36,702 bases of DNA from Acidobacteriota bacterium (GTDB lineage: Bacteria; Acidobacteriota; UBA6911; JACQSX01): NCBI GenBank assembly GCA_016199665.1, contig JACQGG010000227.1, positions 1 through 36,702 on the forward strand, in the 5' to 3' direction. Below the pieces are notes generated by a model. The model made no database searches. It had not been told where the DNA came from and worked only from the letters and a program-made list of their open reading frames with translations. Each line of letters starts with the position of its first letter. Positions within the stretch are counted from its first letter, which is position 1. Positions 5,460-31,785 of this stretch are shown here, in pieces. The position numbers were made by a program, and so were the translations under genes.

Positions 5460-7925
5460 CTAGGCAGACGAACGCTCCGTCAGCGGGACGGTGGGTTGCG
5501 GCTTTGTCTTCAAGTCTCGGTCGGCGCGCCGCACCTTGTCGGCATACATGTTCTGGTCCGCCAAGGCAATCAAAACCTGGCTGTCCCGTCCGTCATCGGG
5601 GAACGTGGCGCATCCAACACTGATGCCGACGCTGACGATGGCATCGCCCGCCGGGAGTTCGAACCTGTCGACGCTCCTCTGGATCCGGCCAATGTTGTCT
5701 TCTGCCTGCTGGCGATTGGCCCCGGAGAGCACGGCGACGAACTCATCGCCCGCATAGCGGACGCAGGTATCGGATTTTCGCATCTGGTTGCGCAGAACCT
5801 GGGCAATCCCCATCAGCATGCGGTCTCCAGTCTGATGGCCGTACAGGTCATTGACCGACTTGAACCGCTCCAGATCCATGACCAGAATCGAGACGGGATA
5901 ATTCAGCCTCTCGGCGCGGCGAAATTCCTGCTCCAGAAACGTGTAAAGGTATCGCGAATTGGGGAGTCCGGTCAGCAGGTCGGTAAACGCATCTTCCTGA
6001 GTTTCCTCAAATATGAGCGAGTTGTTGATGGCGATAGCCGCCTGGCGGCTGATTGTTTCCAGAAGGCGGAGATGGTCCTGAGTATATCCATTCTCAAACT
6101 CTGAATACAGCGTGATCACTCCGACGAGATTCTGGTCCATGGACAACGGGACCGAAAGACAGCTCTTGAAATGGCTCTGCAGGTCGCGGGCGGGAGATGC
6201 ATTCAACAACGGCTGATTGTGGGCTGCCACCCATCCGGTGATGCTCTCGCCCTTGAAGAGATGCTGATTTTCAATCAACTGGGCATGGCGTCCCGAGGAG
6301 TAAAAGCAGGTCAGCTTATCCCCCCCCCTCTCCAGCAGGAAAATTCCGCAAGCCGTGTACGGAACAATGTTCTCGATCTTGCTGCCAATGAGCGCCATCG
6401 TTTCAGAAACCTTCAACGACCTGCCAACGTTCTGGGAAAGCTCGTAAATCGCCTGGATTTCCCTGTGGCTGGCGGCGATATCGTGAAAAACCGTCGCATC
6501 GATCCGCTTGCTGACGCTGTTTGGCTCAGCGATGACCGATTCACCGATACTCTTCAACGCCCTTTCCGGGAGAGTACTTTCCGCGTGCCGGGCGCGCGCT
6601 TCCAGGATCTCGATGTTGTCCGAAAACAGTCGTACCAGATGAGGATCGTACGACCGGCCGGCTTCTTTCTGGAGATAGTCAAGCGCCATCTCGCGGCTCA
6701 ACTCGGCGCGGTAGGGTCGATCGGATCGCAACGCGTCATAGCAATCGGAGATGGAGAGAATCCGGGCGCTGATAGGAATATCTTCCGCTCGCAGCCCGTC
6801 CGGGTAGCCGCTGCCGTCCCATTTCTCGTGGTGGTGGCGTACCGTGGGAACAACCGGAAACGGGAAGTTGACCGAGCTCAAAATATCGGCGCCGACATTG
6901 ACGTGCGCCTTCATCTTCTGGAATTCGCTGGGAGTCAGCGCCGTCGGCTTGTTTAAGATGTACTCCGGAATGGCCAGCTTGCCCACGTCGTGGAGGAGCG
7001 AGGCAGCCTTCAGCCCTTCCACGTCGTCTGAATCGGTCACTCCTGCAAGCTCCGCAAGACCGAGGGCAAAGCTCTGCACGCGCCGGACGTGGCCGTGCGT
7101 GGTCTGGTCTTTGGCGTCAATGGCCATGGCCAGAGAGCTGATTGTAGAGTGATACAGCTCGCTCAGCTTCTCAACGTGCTTCTTGGCCTGCACGATGTTG
7201 TCAAGAGAGACCTTGTACGCAAAATAAATCAGCAGGACAATCGGGACGGTGGCTGTGACAAAGTAAACCCTCTCCCGAGGGAGATAAATCACCGTCAGCG
7301 CCGCCGAAGCGGCGCCCGCAAAGTTGGTCAGGGACGTCCACAGAAAATCGGTCTTCCAGAGCTCCAAAAACTGCGTCCGGGTAACCAGCGAAATCGCCAG
7401 CGCCACGGATCCGCTGTTTAACAGGAAAAGAGCGATCGACGCCGCGGCAAGCGGCACAAACAGGCGGGTCTTATCCTCGGCAGAGCCGACTGGAAAGTTC
7501 CCGGCACTGTAGAGATGATAGAAAAGATTGGAGGCGATCAGGGTGGTGATTGCCAGGTTGGAGAAATTGAACAGGATCTTGTACAAGCCTCGCTGGCGGT
7601 TCCGCAAGCTGCCGAGCAGTGTGTCCAGTGCGGAGATAATGACCGCGATGTAGGGTCCCCACCAGAGCATTGCGACGTAGATGAAAACGTCGGAGAGCGT
7701 CAGCGTCACCGACTCGGATCCTTCTCCCCGTGTGGGGATCTTCACCGAGAAGAATCCGCCCATGGAGGCCAGGACGGCGAGGAAAATCCACTCCGAAGTG
7801 CTTCTCGAAGCCTGGTAGAGGGAAAACACCAGAACGGCGCACCCCAGAAGGTTCACCGAATAAATGTACGCCCTCGCTGTCAGGCGCAAGGGCAGGCGGG
7901 AGGCTCTTCCCTCACTGACGACCAT
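5460..7925 (-). CDS. Membrane HD-GYP - GAF - GGDEF cyclic-di-GMP signalling protein
   Basis: Multi-TM N-terminus; HDVGKLAIPEYILNKP and HHHEKWDGSGYPDGL (HD-GYP); GAF-like middle; RYAGDEF with RKSD five residues upstream (I-site). Confidence 0.92.
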   Translation of the reverse strand: MVVSEGRASRLPLRLTARAYIYSVNLLGCAVLVFSLYQASRSTSEWIFLAVLASMGGFFSVKIPTRGEGSESVTLTLSDVFIYVAMLWWGPYIAVIISALDTLLGSLRNRQRGLYKILFNFSNLAITTLIASNLFYHLYSAGNFPVGSAEDKTRLFVPLAAASIALFLLNSGSVALAISLVTRTQFLELWKTDFLWTSLTNFAGAASAALTVIYLPRERVYFVTATVPIVLLIYFAYKVSLDNIVQAKKHVEKLSELYHSTISSLAMAIDAKDQTTHGHVRRVQSFALGLAELAGVTDSDDVEGLKAASLLHDVGKLAIPEYILNKPTALTPSEFQKMKAHVNVGADILSSVNFPFPVVPTVRHHHEKWDGSGYPDGLRAEDIPISARILSISDCYDALRSDRPYRAELSREMALDYLQKEAGRSYDPHLVRLFSDNIEILEARARHAESTLPERALKSIGESVIAEPNSVSKRIDATVFHDIAASHREIQAIYELSQNVGRSLKVSETMALIGSKIENIVPYTACGIFLLERGGDKLTCFYSSGRHAQLIENQHLFKGESITGWVAAHNQPLLNASPARDLQSHFKSCLSVPLSMDQNLVGVITLYSEFENGYTQDHLRLLETISRQAAIAINNSLIFEETQEDAFTDLLTGLPNSRYLYTFLEQEFRRAERLNYPVSILVMDLERFKSVNDLYGHQTGDRMLMGIAQVLRNQMRKSDTCVRYAGDEFVAVLSGANRQQAEDNIGRIQRSVDRFELPAGDAIVSVGISVGCATFPDDGRDSQVLIALADQNMYADKVRRADRDLKTKPQPTVPLTERSSA

Positions 7926-8056: not shown

Positions 8057-8148
8057 GGCGAAAGTCAATTATCCCAATGAACGATCTTTCCGGTGCTCAC
8101 TCCGCTTCTCCATCAGATCTATCAATCATTGGGCCAGCACTACCCCTC

Positions 8149-8242
8149 TTAGTCCGTCCAGTAAACAATTTGTACCATCACGATTTTTCCCCCTTTAGTC
8201 CGTCCAGTAAACAATTCGCACCATCACGATTTTTCCGCTTTA
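8149..8242. repeat. Two tandem copies (45-46 bp period) just 3' of the subtilase stop codon
   Basis: ttagtccgtccagtaaacaattYgYaccatcacgatttttcc occurs twice; successive tta (minus-strand TAA) triplets at 8149, 8195 and 8240. Confidence 0.9.
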
Positions 8243-10276
8243 GCCAAGGTTTCCGTTGATAATGTCACTCCAAAGAATTTGATCCGACCACAAAATCTGA
8301 TCGGACCAGAGGATCTGATCGGACCAGAGAATCTGATCCGACCAGAGAATCTGGTCCGACCACAAAATCTGGCTTGACTTCAGGCCTGACTGCAACAGCA
8401 GCTTGAGTAGATCCGTCCAAAGAATCTGATCCGTCCAGAGAATTTGATCTGTCCAGAGAATTTGATCTGTCCAGAGGATCTGATCCGACCACAGAATCTG
8501 GTCGGACCAGAGAATCTGGTTGGACCACGCCAGCTTTCCGCCCCACGTCGATCCCGGATTGAAGGGCGGCTGGTAGATCTGAATAAGAGAGTCGCTCCAG
8601 AGAATCTGATCGCTCCAAAGGATCTGGTCAGCCCAATTTACGCCATTACCCCACACAGCCGGGGCCCTCGACGAGATGTGCTGCCCGTAAACGATGGCAT
8701 TGCCCACCACCATTGCCATGCCCCACGGGACGCGCTCGCCTCCGATATACGAAACCGGCTTGGTCGCGCCGGCGGCGATAATCCGCTCCCAGACACTGGC
8801 CCTGCTTACCCTGCGGCTGATCACCGAAGCCAGACGGGCGGCGCCTTCCGCATTCAAAAGACCATTCCCCTGCTCGAACAGATTCGGGCTTGTCATCTTC
8901 TGGGCCGTGTAAAGGATCACGGCGCGCGCCAGGTTCGGGTTCACGCCAGAATTGGCCTCGAGAACCAGGGCCAGGGTCCCGGAGACCTCCGAGGCCGACA
9001 TTGAGGTTCCAGTCAAAGTGATGTACTTGTTGTCTCTTGAAACCAGATTCGGGAAATTCCTGGCCAGATACGAACCGGGCACGTTCAGTGACGTGATCCT
9101 GTAACCGGGCGCGACAAGGTCAGGTTTGGCAAGCAGATTCGGATAGCTCGGCCCGCGCGAGCTGAACCTGGTGATTGTGTCGTCGGAGCGCTTCACCGTG
9201 CCATTGGAATTGGTGGCCCCCACGGCAATCACCAGCGGATTGTGCGCGGGCGAGTTGATTCCGCCGAGAACGGTGCGTCCCTGCAGGAAGCCGTTGTTTC
9301 CTGCAGAGGCGACTACAAGAATGCCCGCCTCGACGGCTCGCTGCGCGGCCAGCGAAAGGGGATCTGTCTTATAGCTTTCCTTGGGCGGGTGACCGGCCGA
9401 GAGATTGATAATTCGGATGTTGTACTTACTCTTGTTCGCCACGCACCAGCCGAAGGCTGCAATGACGTCGCTGGTGCGGCCGGTCCCTTCATCACCCAGC
9501 GCCTTCAACGAGAGCAACTCCGCATCGGGCGCCATCCCGCTAAAACCTGAATTGGACCCGCGTAGATTGGCCGCGATAGTCCCTGCGACATGAGTCCCGT
9601 GGCCAAAGTTGTCCCGGTTGGGATAGCCGGTGAAGTTTTGGGCGGCGCGGAGCTTGATTCCGAAACCCCCTGCGATGCCGTTCTCAATTCCGCTGTCGAT
9701 GACCGCAACCACAACTTCCTCGCCGGTCACTCCGAGCTGTGAATGGGCCTGGTCTGCTCCAGTTGTCAGAATGGTTGGGTTGGGGAGTCTCGATCCGTCA
9801 TCGCCCCGGTTATTTTTCTCATCGTCACTCTCAGCCCGGACCACAGCGTCCGATGAGATCCGAACCACGTCGTCCTGCTCTGCCAGATTAATCAGCCTCT
9901 CCAGCGGGATTTCGACGGCCATGCCCTCGATAAGCGACAAATCCCGGAGGGCGTGTCCTCCCATCGAAGCGACCAGGCTGTCGCGCTCAAGCTGCCGTAC
10001 TCCGGCATCGCGCTTTTCCCTGGAGGAAACATCGCCGGCAAATTGAACGATGACTTGAACAGGGCGCCCGGATTCTCCGGCCGCCATCCCGTTGGCGAGT
10101 TCCTCAAGGATGTCCGGCGACAGGCGGAGAATCAAGCGGCCAACAGAGTTCTGCGACGCAGAAACGGAGGGAGCCAGAGGACCGACCCCCTCGGAAATAA
10201 ACGAGATTGCGCCTAACGCCGTTAAGATCGCGGCGACTTTTCTGGACAGGCACGCGCCAAACACTTTGCGCGCCAT
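8240..10276 (-). CDS. Secreted subtilisin-like (S8) serine protease with I9-like propeptide and C-terminal ILWSDQ hexapeptide repeats
   Basis: Catalytic motifs VAVIDSGIE (D), NFGHGTHVAGTIAA (H), SAGNNG (oxyanion N), GTSMSASEVSG (S); signal peptide MARKVFGACLSRKVAAILTALGAISF. ATG at 10276 preceded by aaggaggccacc; the listed ORF start at 10369 runs into the riboswitch and is probably wrong. Confidence 0.93.
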   Translation of the reverse strand: MARKVFGACLSRKVAAILTALGAISFISEGVGPLAPSVSASQNSVGRLILRLSPDILEELANGMAAGESGRPVQVIVQFAGDVSSREKRDAGVRQLERDSLVASMGGHALRDLSLIEGMAVEIPLERLINLAEQDDVVRISSDAVVRAESDDEKNNRGDDGSRLPNPTILTTGADQAHSQLGVTGEEVVVAVIDSGIENGIAGGFGIKLRAAQNFTGYPNRDNFGHGTHVAGTIAANLRGSNSGFSGMAPDAELLSLKALGDEGTGRTSDVIAAFGWCVANKSKYNIRIINLSAGHPPKESYKTDPLSLAAQRAVEAGILVVASAGNNGFLQGRTVLGGINSPAHNPLVIAVGATNSNGTVKRSDDTITRFSSRGPSYPNLLAKPDLVAPGYRITSLNVPGSYLARNFPNLVSRDNKYITLTGTSMSASEVSGTLALVLEANSGVNPNLARAVILYTAQKMTSPNLFEQGNGLLNAEGAARLASVISRRVSRASVWERIIAAGATKPVSYIGGERVPWGMAMVVGNAIVYGQHISSRAPAVWGNGVNWADQILWSDQILWSDSLIQIYQPPFNPGSTWGGKLAWSNQILWSDQILWSDQILWTDQILWTDQILWTDQILWTDLLKLLLQSGLKSSQILWSDQILWSDQILWSDQILWSDQILWSDQILWSDIINGNLG
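8264..8638 (-). repeat. 18-bp coding repeats (QILWSD/QILWTD) in three blocks
   Basis: Block C 8264-8371 (6 copies), block B 8411-8533 (7 copies, some degenerate), block A 8591-8638 (3 copies, one degenerate). Confidence 0.92.
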
Positions 10277-31466: not shown

Positions 31467-31680
31467 AAACTGCGAGAAATGGAGGAAGGGTGGGATGCCC
31501 GCGACCCTCTGATAAACTGGTGTCCAGAAAATCACTGGACAGTCGCTGCTGCTCGGTTTTGTATCAGAAAGGCATAAAACGGCTGCCCTGTTAACTCGGG
31601 ACACGACCGGAGGGGATCATTCGCGGATCAGGCGCCCTGGGGGCGAGAATGAAAGACCCCCAGCCTGCTGATGACCGACA

Positions 31681-31785
31681 GCGGATGGCTGATGGCTGAA
31701 CGCCGATGGCTGATGGCTAAACGCGGATGGCTGACGGCTGACAGCGGATGGCTGACGGCCGAACGCAGATGGCTGGCGGCTGAAA
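31681..31785. repeat. Tandem minisatellite, 5 copies of 21 bp, upstream of glyA
   Basis: gcggatggctgatggctgaac-like units start at 31681, 31702, 31723, 31744 and 31765; array ends 9 bp before the glyA ATG. Confidence 0.92.

Follow-up and report, generated by a model that had tools for sequence, protein, structure and literature searches.

Hexad-tailed subtilases of Acidobacteriota, the micro-ORFs that copy their repeat and a neighbouring MASE9 sensor gene: a candidate signalling module

A tailed subtilase and its downstream neighbours

The window, i.e. the whole stretch of 36,702 nucleotides that was analysed, is contig C192 of a fragmentary acidobacterial genome (2.54 Mb in 259 contigs, 78% complete). 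Its minus strand carries a gene for an S8 subtilase of 678 amino acids (8240..10276; ATG at 10276, TAA at 8240-8242). By inspection, the N-terminus is signal-peptide-like and includes an I9-like propeptide. The peptidase S8 domain (residues 185-472; 8861..9724, minus strand) matches the Pfam model Peptidase_S8 over its full length (E 2e-47, profile positions 1-288 of 288). Its triad D194/H226/S425 occupies columns that are invariant in alignments, and the protease core has a pLDDT mostly above 90 in an AlphaFold model of the whole protein. Among solved structures the closest are Tk-SP (3afg) and pro-subtilisin E (3whi), which share its catalytic domain, triad and propeptide fold. We infer that the enzyme is secreted, and that it comes from a soil-type acidobacterium. 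An identity as a mycosin of a T7SS was dismissed, as the score against TIGR03921 (127 bits) falls short of the cut-off of 278.75.

What distinguishes the protein from other S8 subtilases (PF00082) is a hexad tail that no Pfam or NCBIfam model covers. Within the last 130 residues there are 14 exact QILW[ST]D hexads, arranged in blocks of two, six and six (residues 551-562, 587-622 and 636-671), all encoded on the minus strand. The first block (2 x QILWSD; 8591..8626) follows PAVWGN GVNWAD in register. Then comes a 24-residue linker, SLIQIY QPPFNP GSTWGG KLAWSN (8519..8590), which is four hexad lengths long and likewise in register, and leads to the second block (6 x QILW[ST]D; 8411..8518). A helical-looking 13-residue loop, LLKLLLQSGLKSS (8372..8410), separates it from the third block (6 x QILWSD; 8264..8371), after which the protein ends with IINGNLG. 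When the four degenerate in-register hexads (PAVWGN, GVNWAD, GSTWGG, KLAWSN) are included, the tail comprises 18 Trp hexads. The initial annotation had counted about 16 hexads in three blocks; the blocks and their C-terminal position stand, whereas the number becomes 14 or 18, depending on whether degenerate units are admitted. TRF detected an 18-bp period in the array. A 30-base pattern for a pair of QILW hexads has 20 matches in the genome, all of them in the window gene and its paralogue, and the reversed control has none; the array is therefore far beyond chance. A superperiod of 12 or 18 residues, from which the number of hexads per coil might have been inferred, did not emerge, as identities at spacings of one to four hexads barely differ. 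Two further tandem repeats lie elsewhere in the window: at 109-210, ahead of an EF-G-like gene, a 25-bp unit in four copies (97% matches), and a 21-bp unit in 5.6 copies between open reading frames (31667-31784).

Directly downstream of the subtilase are features that the initial annotation overlooked. Between its stop codon and the next gene, three micro-ORFs on the same strand end with IVYWTD, IVYWTD and IVHWDN, each thus carrying one stand-alone hexad. These are MVRIVYWTD-stop (8195..8224, with an ATG start and a GTG one codon earlier), MVQIVYWTD-stop (8149..8178, with AGGGGG upstream) and (GTG)STGKIVHWDN-stop (8065..8100, with GGAG upstream); TRF calls the first two as a 46-bp tandem repeat. 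The gene that follows (5460..7925, minus strand) encodes a membrane signalling protein of 821 amino acids with the order MASE9 - HD-GYP - GAF - GGDEF, our candidate receptor. It scores above the cut-off for MASE9 (26.0 versus 24.3 bits) and matches HD_5 (2.5e-39) and GGDEF (5e-42), and we aligned it with 13 homologues encoded downstream of other tailed subtilases. It thus belongs to the MASE9-HD-GYP/GGDEF c-di-GMP membrane enzymes (PF20972); the literature searched names no partner for MASE9, which in this case is linked to a protease and micropeptides.

An old array within a widespread tail family

No two of the 14 units have the same 18-bp DNA sequence. Their pairwise identity averages 79.6%, with a minimum of 61%, and the differences are all synonymous or Ser/Thr changes. 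Codon identity between units (0.57) hardly exceeds the 0.51 that codon usage elsewhere in the gene predicts; in recently amplified arrays of relatives it amounts to 0.82-0.92 (L009, L018, L027, L075, L088). A paralogue on contig C50 (locus L036), 67% identical over the protein, keeps the 2+6+6 layout and, as its alignment shows, the lengths of both spacers. The 13-residue loop is also equally long in a relative from the same genus, in which the last block has five units. Since the units have diverged synonymously while the layout is kept in the paralogue and the loop length in the genus relative too, the array is old and held by selection. These results replace the former picture of nearly identical 18-bp units that had recently expanded or been homogenised; the proposed comparison of copy numbers points to conservation instead. 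As two paralogues and a second species carry the same array, it is neither missing from close relatives nor likely to be an assembly artefact.

A search with the single window protein retrieved no related loci, and an alignment as query retrieved 80 named loci. Of the 396 genomes sampled from the phylum, 123 encode homologues. Among 132 distinct S8 proteins, 107 have Trp hexads and 19 aliphatic ones, and these 126 tailed proteins use 97 dominant hexads of the general form [GSTNQ]-phi-phi-W-[GSTA]-[DEN]. The consensus is [GSTNA]-[VIA]-[VLI]-W-[GTSA]-[DNE], with V, L, I, A or M in place of W in the aliphatic set. This phylum-wide family bears out the suggested kinship of the window tail with tails of the IVWGD/IVWGT type. 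In a midpoint-rooted tree, 18 of the 19 proteins with aliphatic tails group in a single supported clade nested among the Trp-tailed ones. Tailed S8 peptidases come mostly from Acidobacteriota, and the named relatives include members of Gammaproteobacteria and Chloroflexota, too. At the non-Trp positions, hexads of one protein resemble each other (0.68) and those of different proteins do not (0.26), and even cores that are 74% identical can bear hexads with only 17% identity, a pattern that indicates concerted evolution.

A search for arrays of four or more W-[SGTA]-[DN] hexads was positive in 44 of 297 genomes; its reversed control matched once among the genomes listed. Every Trp-hexad array that could be seen in full showed S8 features, and the remaining arrays are fragments at contig edges. 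Such a restriction to S8 proteases is not what a general sorting tag would lead one to expect, and we thus disfavoured a C-terminal sorting or anchor signal of the PEP-CTERM or T9SS-CTD type. The tails represent a widespread repeat family that lacks a model, evolves in concert and is found only on S8 proteases.

Several features of individual loci deserve mention. Tandem or multiple hexad-tailed subtilases are encoded at L211, L142, L113, L121, L098 and L090, and one genome (G059) has at least eight hexad arrays of different flavours. Tailed subtilases of several phyla share a terminal motif [IV]NxWVx[QE][ED] (L090, L114, L131, L135, L142, L181), and many from Terriglobia end with GE[NKQ]. An actinobacterial S8 protease (L145) has a tail of five-residue Trp-Ser repeats (TSWSG/ISWSA type), possibly a pentad analogue.

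Conservation of the micro-ORFs and their linkage to MASE9 genes

Comparable micro-ORFs accompany the closest relatives of the window gene. The paralogue is followed by VTDQIVYWTD and MNKLEIVYWDD, and in the genus relative (G095) MIAQIVYWTD, MNTEKIVYWGD and MNNGKIVYWDD precede its own MASE9 gene, the last being the counterpart of the third window micro-ORF. A second locus of that genome has MIAQIVYWTD and MNREKIVYWGD. The G095 starts lie behind a clear Shine-Dalgarno sequence (GGAGG), e.g. GGAGGAACC-ATG. Across window, paralogue and genus relative the DNA differs silently while IV[YH]W[TGD][DN]-stop is kept, and in the genome of the window the IVYWxD-stop pattern, with four occurrences, is confined to the stretches that follow the two tailed subtilases.

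On the scale of the phylum, we searched 396 genomes with a degenerate 30-base pattern for M-x-x-phi-[VI]-x-W-[GSTA]-[DE]-stop. Of its 17 matches (reversed control: one among the genomes listed), 15 immediately follow hexad-tailed S8 genes. Besides the window pair, they encode MNKIVHWTD, MQFIVYWGD, MAFIVYWTD, MVAVIIWGD, MKPLIIWGE, MSRLIIWGE, MAKLIIWGE, MRKLIIWGE and MQYVIIWGD. Of the other two matches, the one in G173 was discarded because it is located inside another coding frame, and the one in G334 because it ends in TGG and has no stop codon. In 21 distinct micro-ORF cores, change is highest at codon position 3 (0.55) and lowest at position 2 (0.18). With nine codons plus stop, the micro-ORFs are far below usual annotation limits, yet their amino acid sequences are conserved; this conservation and the ribosome-binding sites suggest that they are translated. 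A precedent for a functional gene of fewer than ten codons is the seven-codon gene of the microcin C precursor MccA, although no adenylating MccB-like gene was seen beside the micro-ORFs.

The order of tailed subtilase, micro-ORFs and MASE9-HD-GYP-GAF(-GGDEF) gene recurs in unrelated contexts. Other lineages encode, next to the tailed subtilase on its downstream side, a MASE9-like domain joined to HisKA-HATPase-REC or to PAS-GGDEF-EAL, or standing alone (about 240 amino acids), some of these domains being recognised only by a model built in this analysis and not by Pfam. Thus, across distant families the output domains vary while MASE9 stays. Of 75 tailed S8 genes in named loci, 23 have a MASE9 gene directly downstream on the same strand, four upstream and eight on the opposite strand; the excess of downstream over upstream positions has a p value of 3e-4, computed on tailed S8 genes only. 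Conversely, 10 of 30 Pfam MASE9 matches examined, drawn from 199 genomes, are directly downstream of a tailed subtilase. Where a tailed S8 gene lies upstream, 16 of 50 MASE9 genes have micro-ORFs in front of them; among 50 without such a neighbour there is a single case, which sits at a contig edge where the fragment carries the hexad array. Since the loci from the genome draw and the named loci are partly the same, all these counts are to some extent dependent on one another.

We consider it very probable that tailed subtilase, micro-ORFs and MASE9 gene constitute a linked module. Several findings count against the recognition model set out below: the flank examined contains no MASE9 gene for many tailed subtilases, among them those of Gammaproteobacteria, Chloroflexota and a large part of Acidobacteriota; next to the paralogue on contig C50 there are micro-ORFs, but a MASE9 gene is missing; the micro-ORFs are restricted to a few families; and MASE9 also occurs apart from subtilases, Thermus and Thermotoga included.

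Fold of the tail and possible roles of the hexad

The initial annotation had proposed a regular beta-type structure for the tail. In the full-length AlphaFold model every hexad forms a four-residue strand (EEEE--), though at a pLDDT of 30-50, whereas the tail modelled alone has a pLDDT of 40 and no strands, so that a beta-type structure is a possibility only. A triangular coil of three hexads, as in left-handed beta-helices, would likewise have to be read from these low-confidence tail models. The six-residue period is shared with the left-handed beta-helix of Hexapep proteins (PF00132), and aliphatic tails such as GVLIGD fit the Hexapep pattern [LIV]-[GAED]-x2-[STAV]-x in register; a tail of 11 GVLIGD units matches the Pfam model with 52.5 bits (cut-off 27, E 2.9e-14). 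The match is weak for a GVILSD tail and absent for the Trp tails tested, the window tail giving none at E values up to 10. Unlike Hexapep, most tails have Trp at the core position, and the window tail has neither a model match nor a confident fold. A search of the PDB with the tail profile found no relative. With no Hexapep match, no PDB relative and a tail-alone model devoid of strands, we did not assign the Trp tail firmly to the beta-helices.

Since the micropeptides copy one hexad between protease and sensor, and since MASE9 stays while the output changes, the hexad itself may be what MASE9 recognises. Given the micro-ORFs and the MASE9 gene, the likely meaning of the tail thus shifts from surface retention to recognition or signalling. 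According to this recognition model, the hexad (phi-phi-W-[STG]-[DE]) would be a short recognition motif in a module ordered from the hexad-tailed secreted subtilase through micro-ORFs of 9-11 residues with one hexad to a MASE9 membrane sensor. The tail would present the motif many times on the protease, outside the cytoplasmic membrane, and each micropeptide would offer a single copy whose C-terminus is free. As the partner of the hexad, the transmembrane domain MASE9 could then read whether the protease is present, whether its tail is intact or cleaved, or whether the peptide is present, and would pass this state to the fused output, which would be c-di-GMP turnover in the window and a phosphorelay or GGDEF-EAL proteins elsewhere. 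Whether the hexad is read by MASE9 in this way we regard as close to evenly balanced. It is slightly more doubtful that hexads on subtilase arrays and as 9-11-residue micropeptides are MASE9 ligands that define a new class of signalling in Acidobacteriota with c-di-GMP, histidine-kinase or other outputs. The lack of a signal peptide on the micropeptides counts against an extracellular action.

Other explanations have to be weighed against the recognition model. The tail could have a structural role only, as a stalk or anchor resembling a left-handed beta-helix in which stacking keeps the hexads uniform, the neighbours being a regulatory coincidence. The strand per hexad in the full-length model, the Hexapep matches of a clade that nests within Trp-tailed proteins, and the uniformity of hexads within but not between proteins are all consistent with such a solenoid. 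Nevertheless we deem it unlikely, as the window tail and other Trp tails resemble neither Hexapep nor any PDB entry found, and as micro-ORFs that copy one hexad and the linkage to MASE9 would be left unexplained. Moreover, AlphaFold 2 tends to over-predict beta-solenoids for perfect repeats (PMC11795689), for which reason even a confident solenoid model would be weak, and despite this tendency the tail alone yielded no strands. By-products of replication slippage can be set aside with near certainty: slippage does occur, as nearly identical DNA repeats in some family members illustrate, but the window units differ synonymously throughout with their protein hexad kept, copy number is conserved in the 67% identical paralogue, and every fully seen array sits on an S8 peptidase.

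The remaining two readings concern the micropeptides. If the tail were a polyprotein that the subtilase, or some other protease, cuts to free hexapeptides, the micro-ORFs would encode the same class of signal, and the flavours would be strain-specific pheromones read by MASE9. The shared phi-phi-W-x-[DE] end of tail hexads and micropeptides (closest e.g. in the tail hexad SIIWGE and the peptide MKPLIIWGE), the adjacency of protease, peptide and receptor, and the 97 internally uniform dominant hexads in 126 proteins, which resemble signal diversification, would suit this scenario. We rate it as rather improbable nonetheless, for neither a cleavage site nor an exporter was identified, and the micropeptides are more conserved than the tails, unlike typical pheromones diversified in specificity. 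Lower still is the probability we give to a role as regulatory leaders or coupling ORFs, in which the act of translation would control how strongly the MASE9 gene is expressed and the peptides themselves would be inactive. Their tiny size, ribosome-binding sites and position directly upstream of that gene are as expected of leaders, but the conservation of amino acids despite synonymous change, the resemblance to the tail of the adjacent protein, the occurrence of as many as three consecutive copies and the persistence behind a paralogue that has no MASE9 gene are not.

Very many c-di-GMP enzymes and kinases of bacteria carry a MASE domain, and to our knowledge an input has been identified for few of these domains. 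For MASE9, a linked protease tail and micropeptide offer a concrete candidate ligand that can be synthesised (QILWSD, IVYWTD, LIIWGE). Peptide signalling modules such as agr, Rap-Phr and Rgg-SHP resemble the present one in that the gene for a very short peptide neighbours a protease and a sensor, located either in the membrane or in the cytoplasm. Here, however, the proteins are unrelated to those of such modules, no exporter was seen, the peptide reproduces the tail motif of the protease encoded next to it, and the output is c-di-GMP, a phosphorelay or GGDEF-EAL. Each protein family is known, while the arrangement is not of a described kind: the literature searched, which left most subscription journals outside, held no description of the tails, of MASE9 partners or of such micropeptides, nor a paper on the MASE9 domain.

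Two variants of the MASE9 proteins were noted in addition. At L037, downstream of the S8 stop codon, there is no separate micro-ORF, and an N-terminal extension of the MASE9 protein contains NRFWGE, possibly a fused micropeptide. In Terriglobia-type genomes, stand-alone MASE9-like membrane proteins of about 240 amino acids with no output domain (L091, L095, L099, L102, L117, L128, L134, L148, L152) are encoded close behind a hexad-tailed subtilase.
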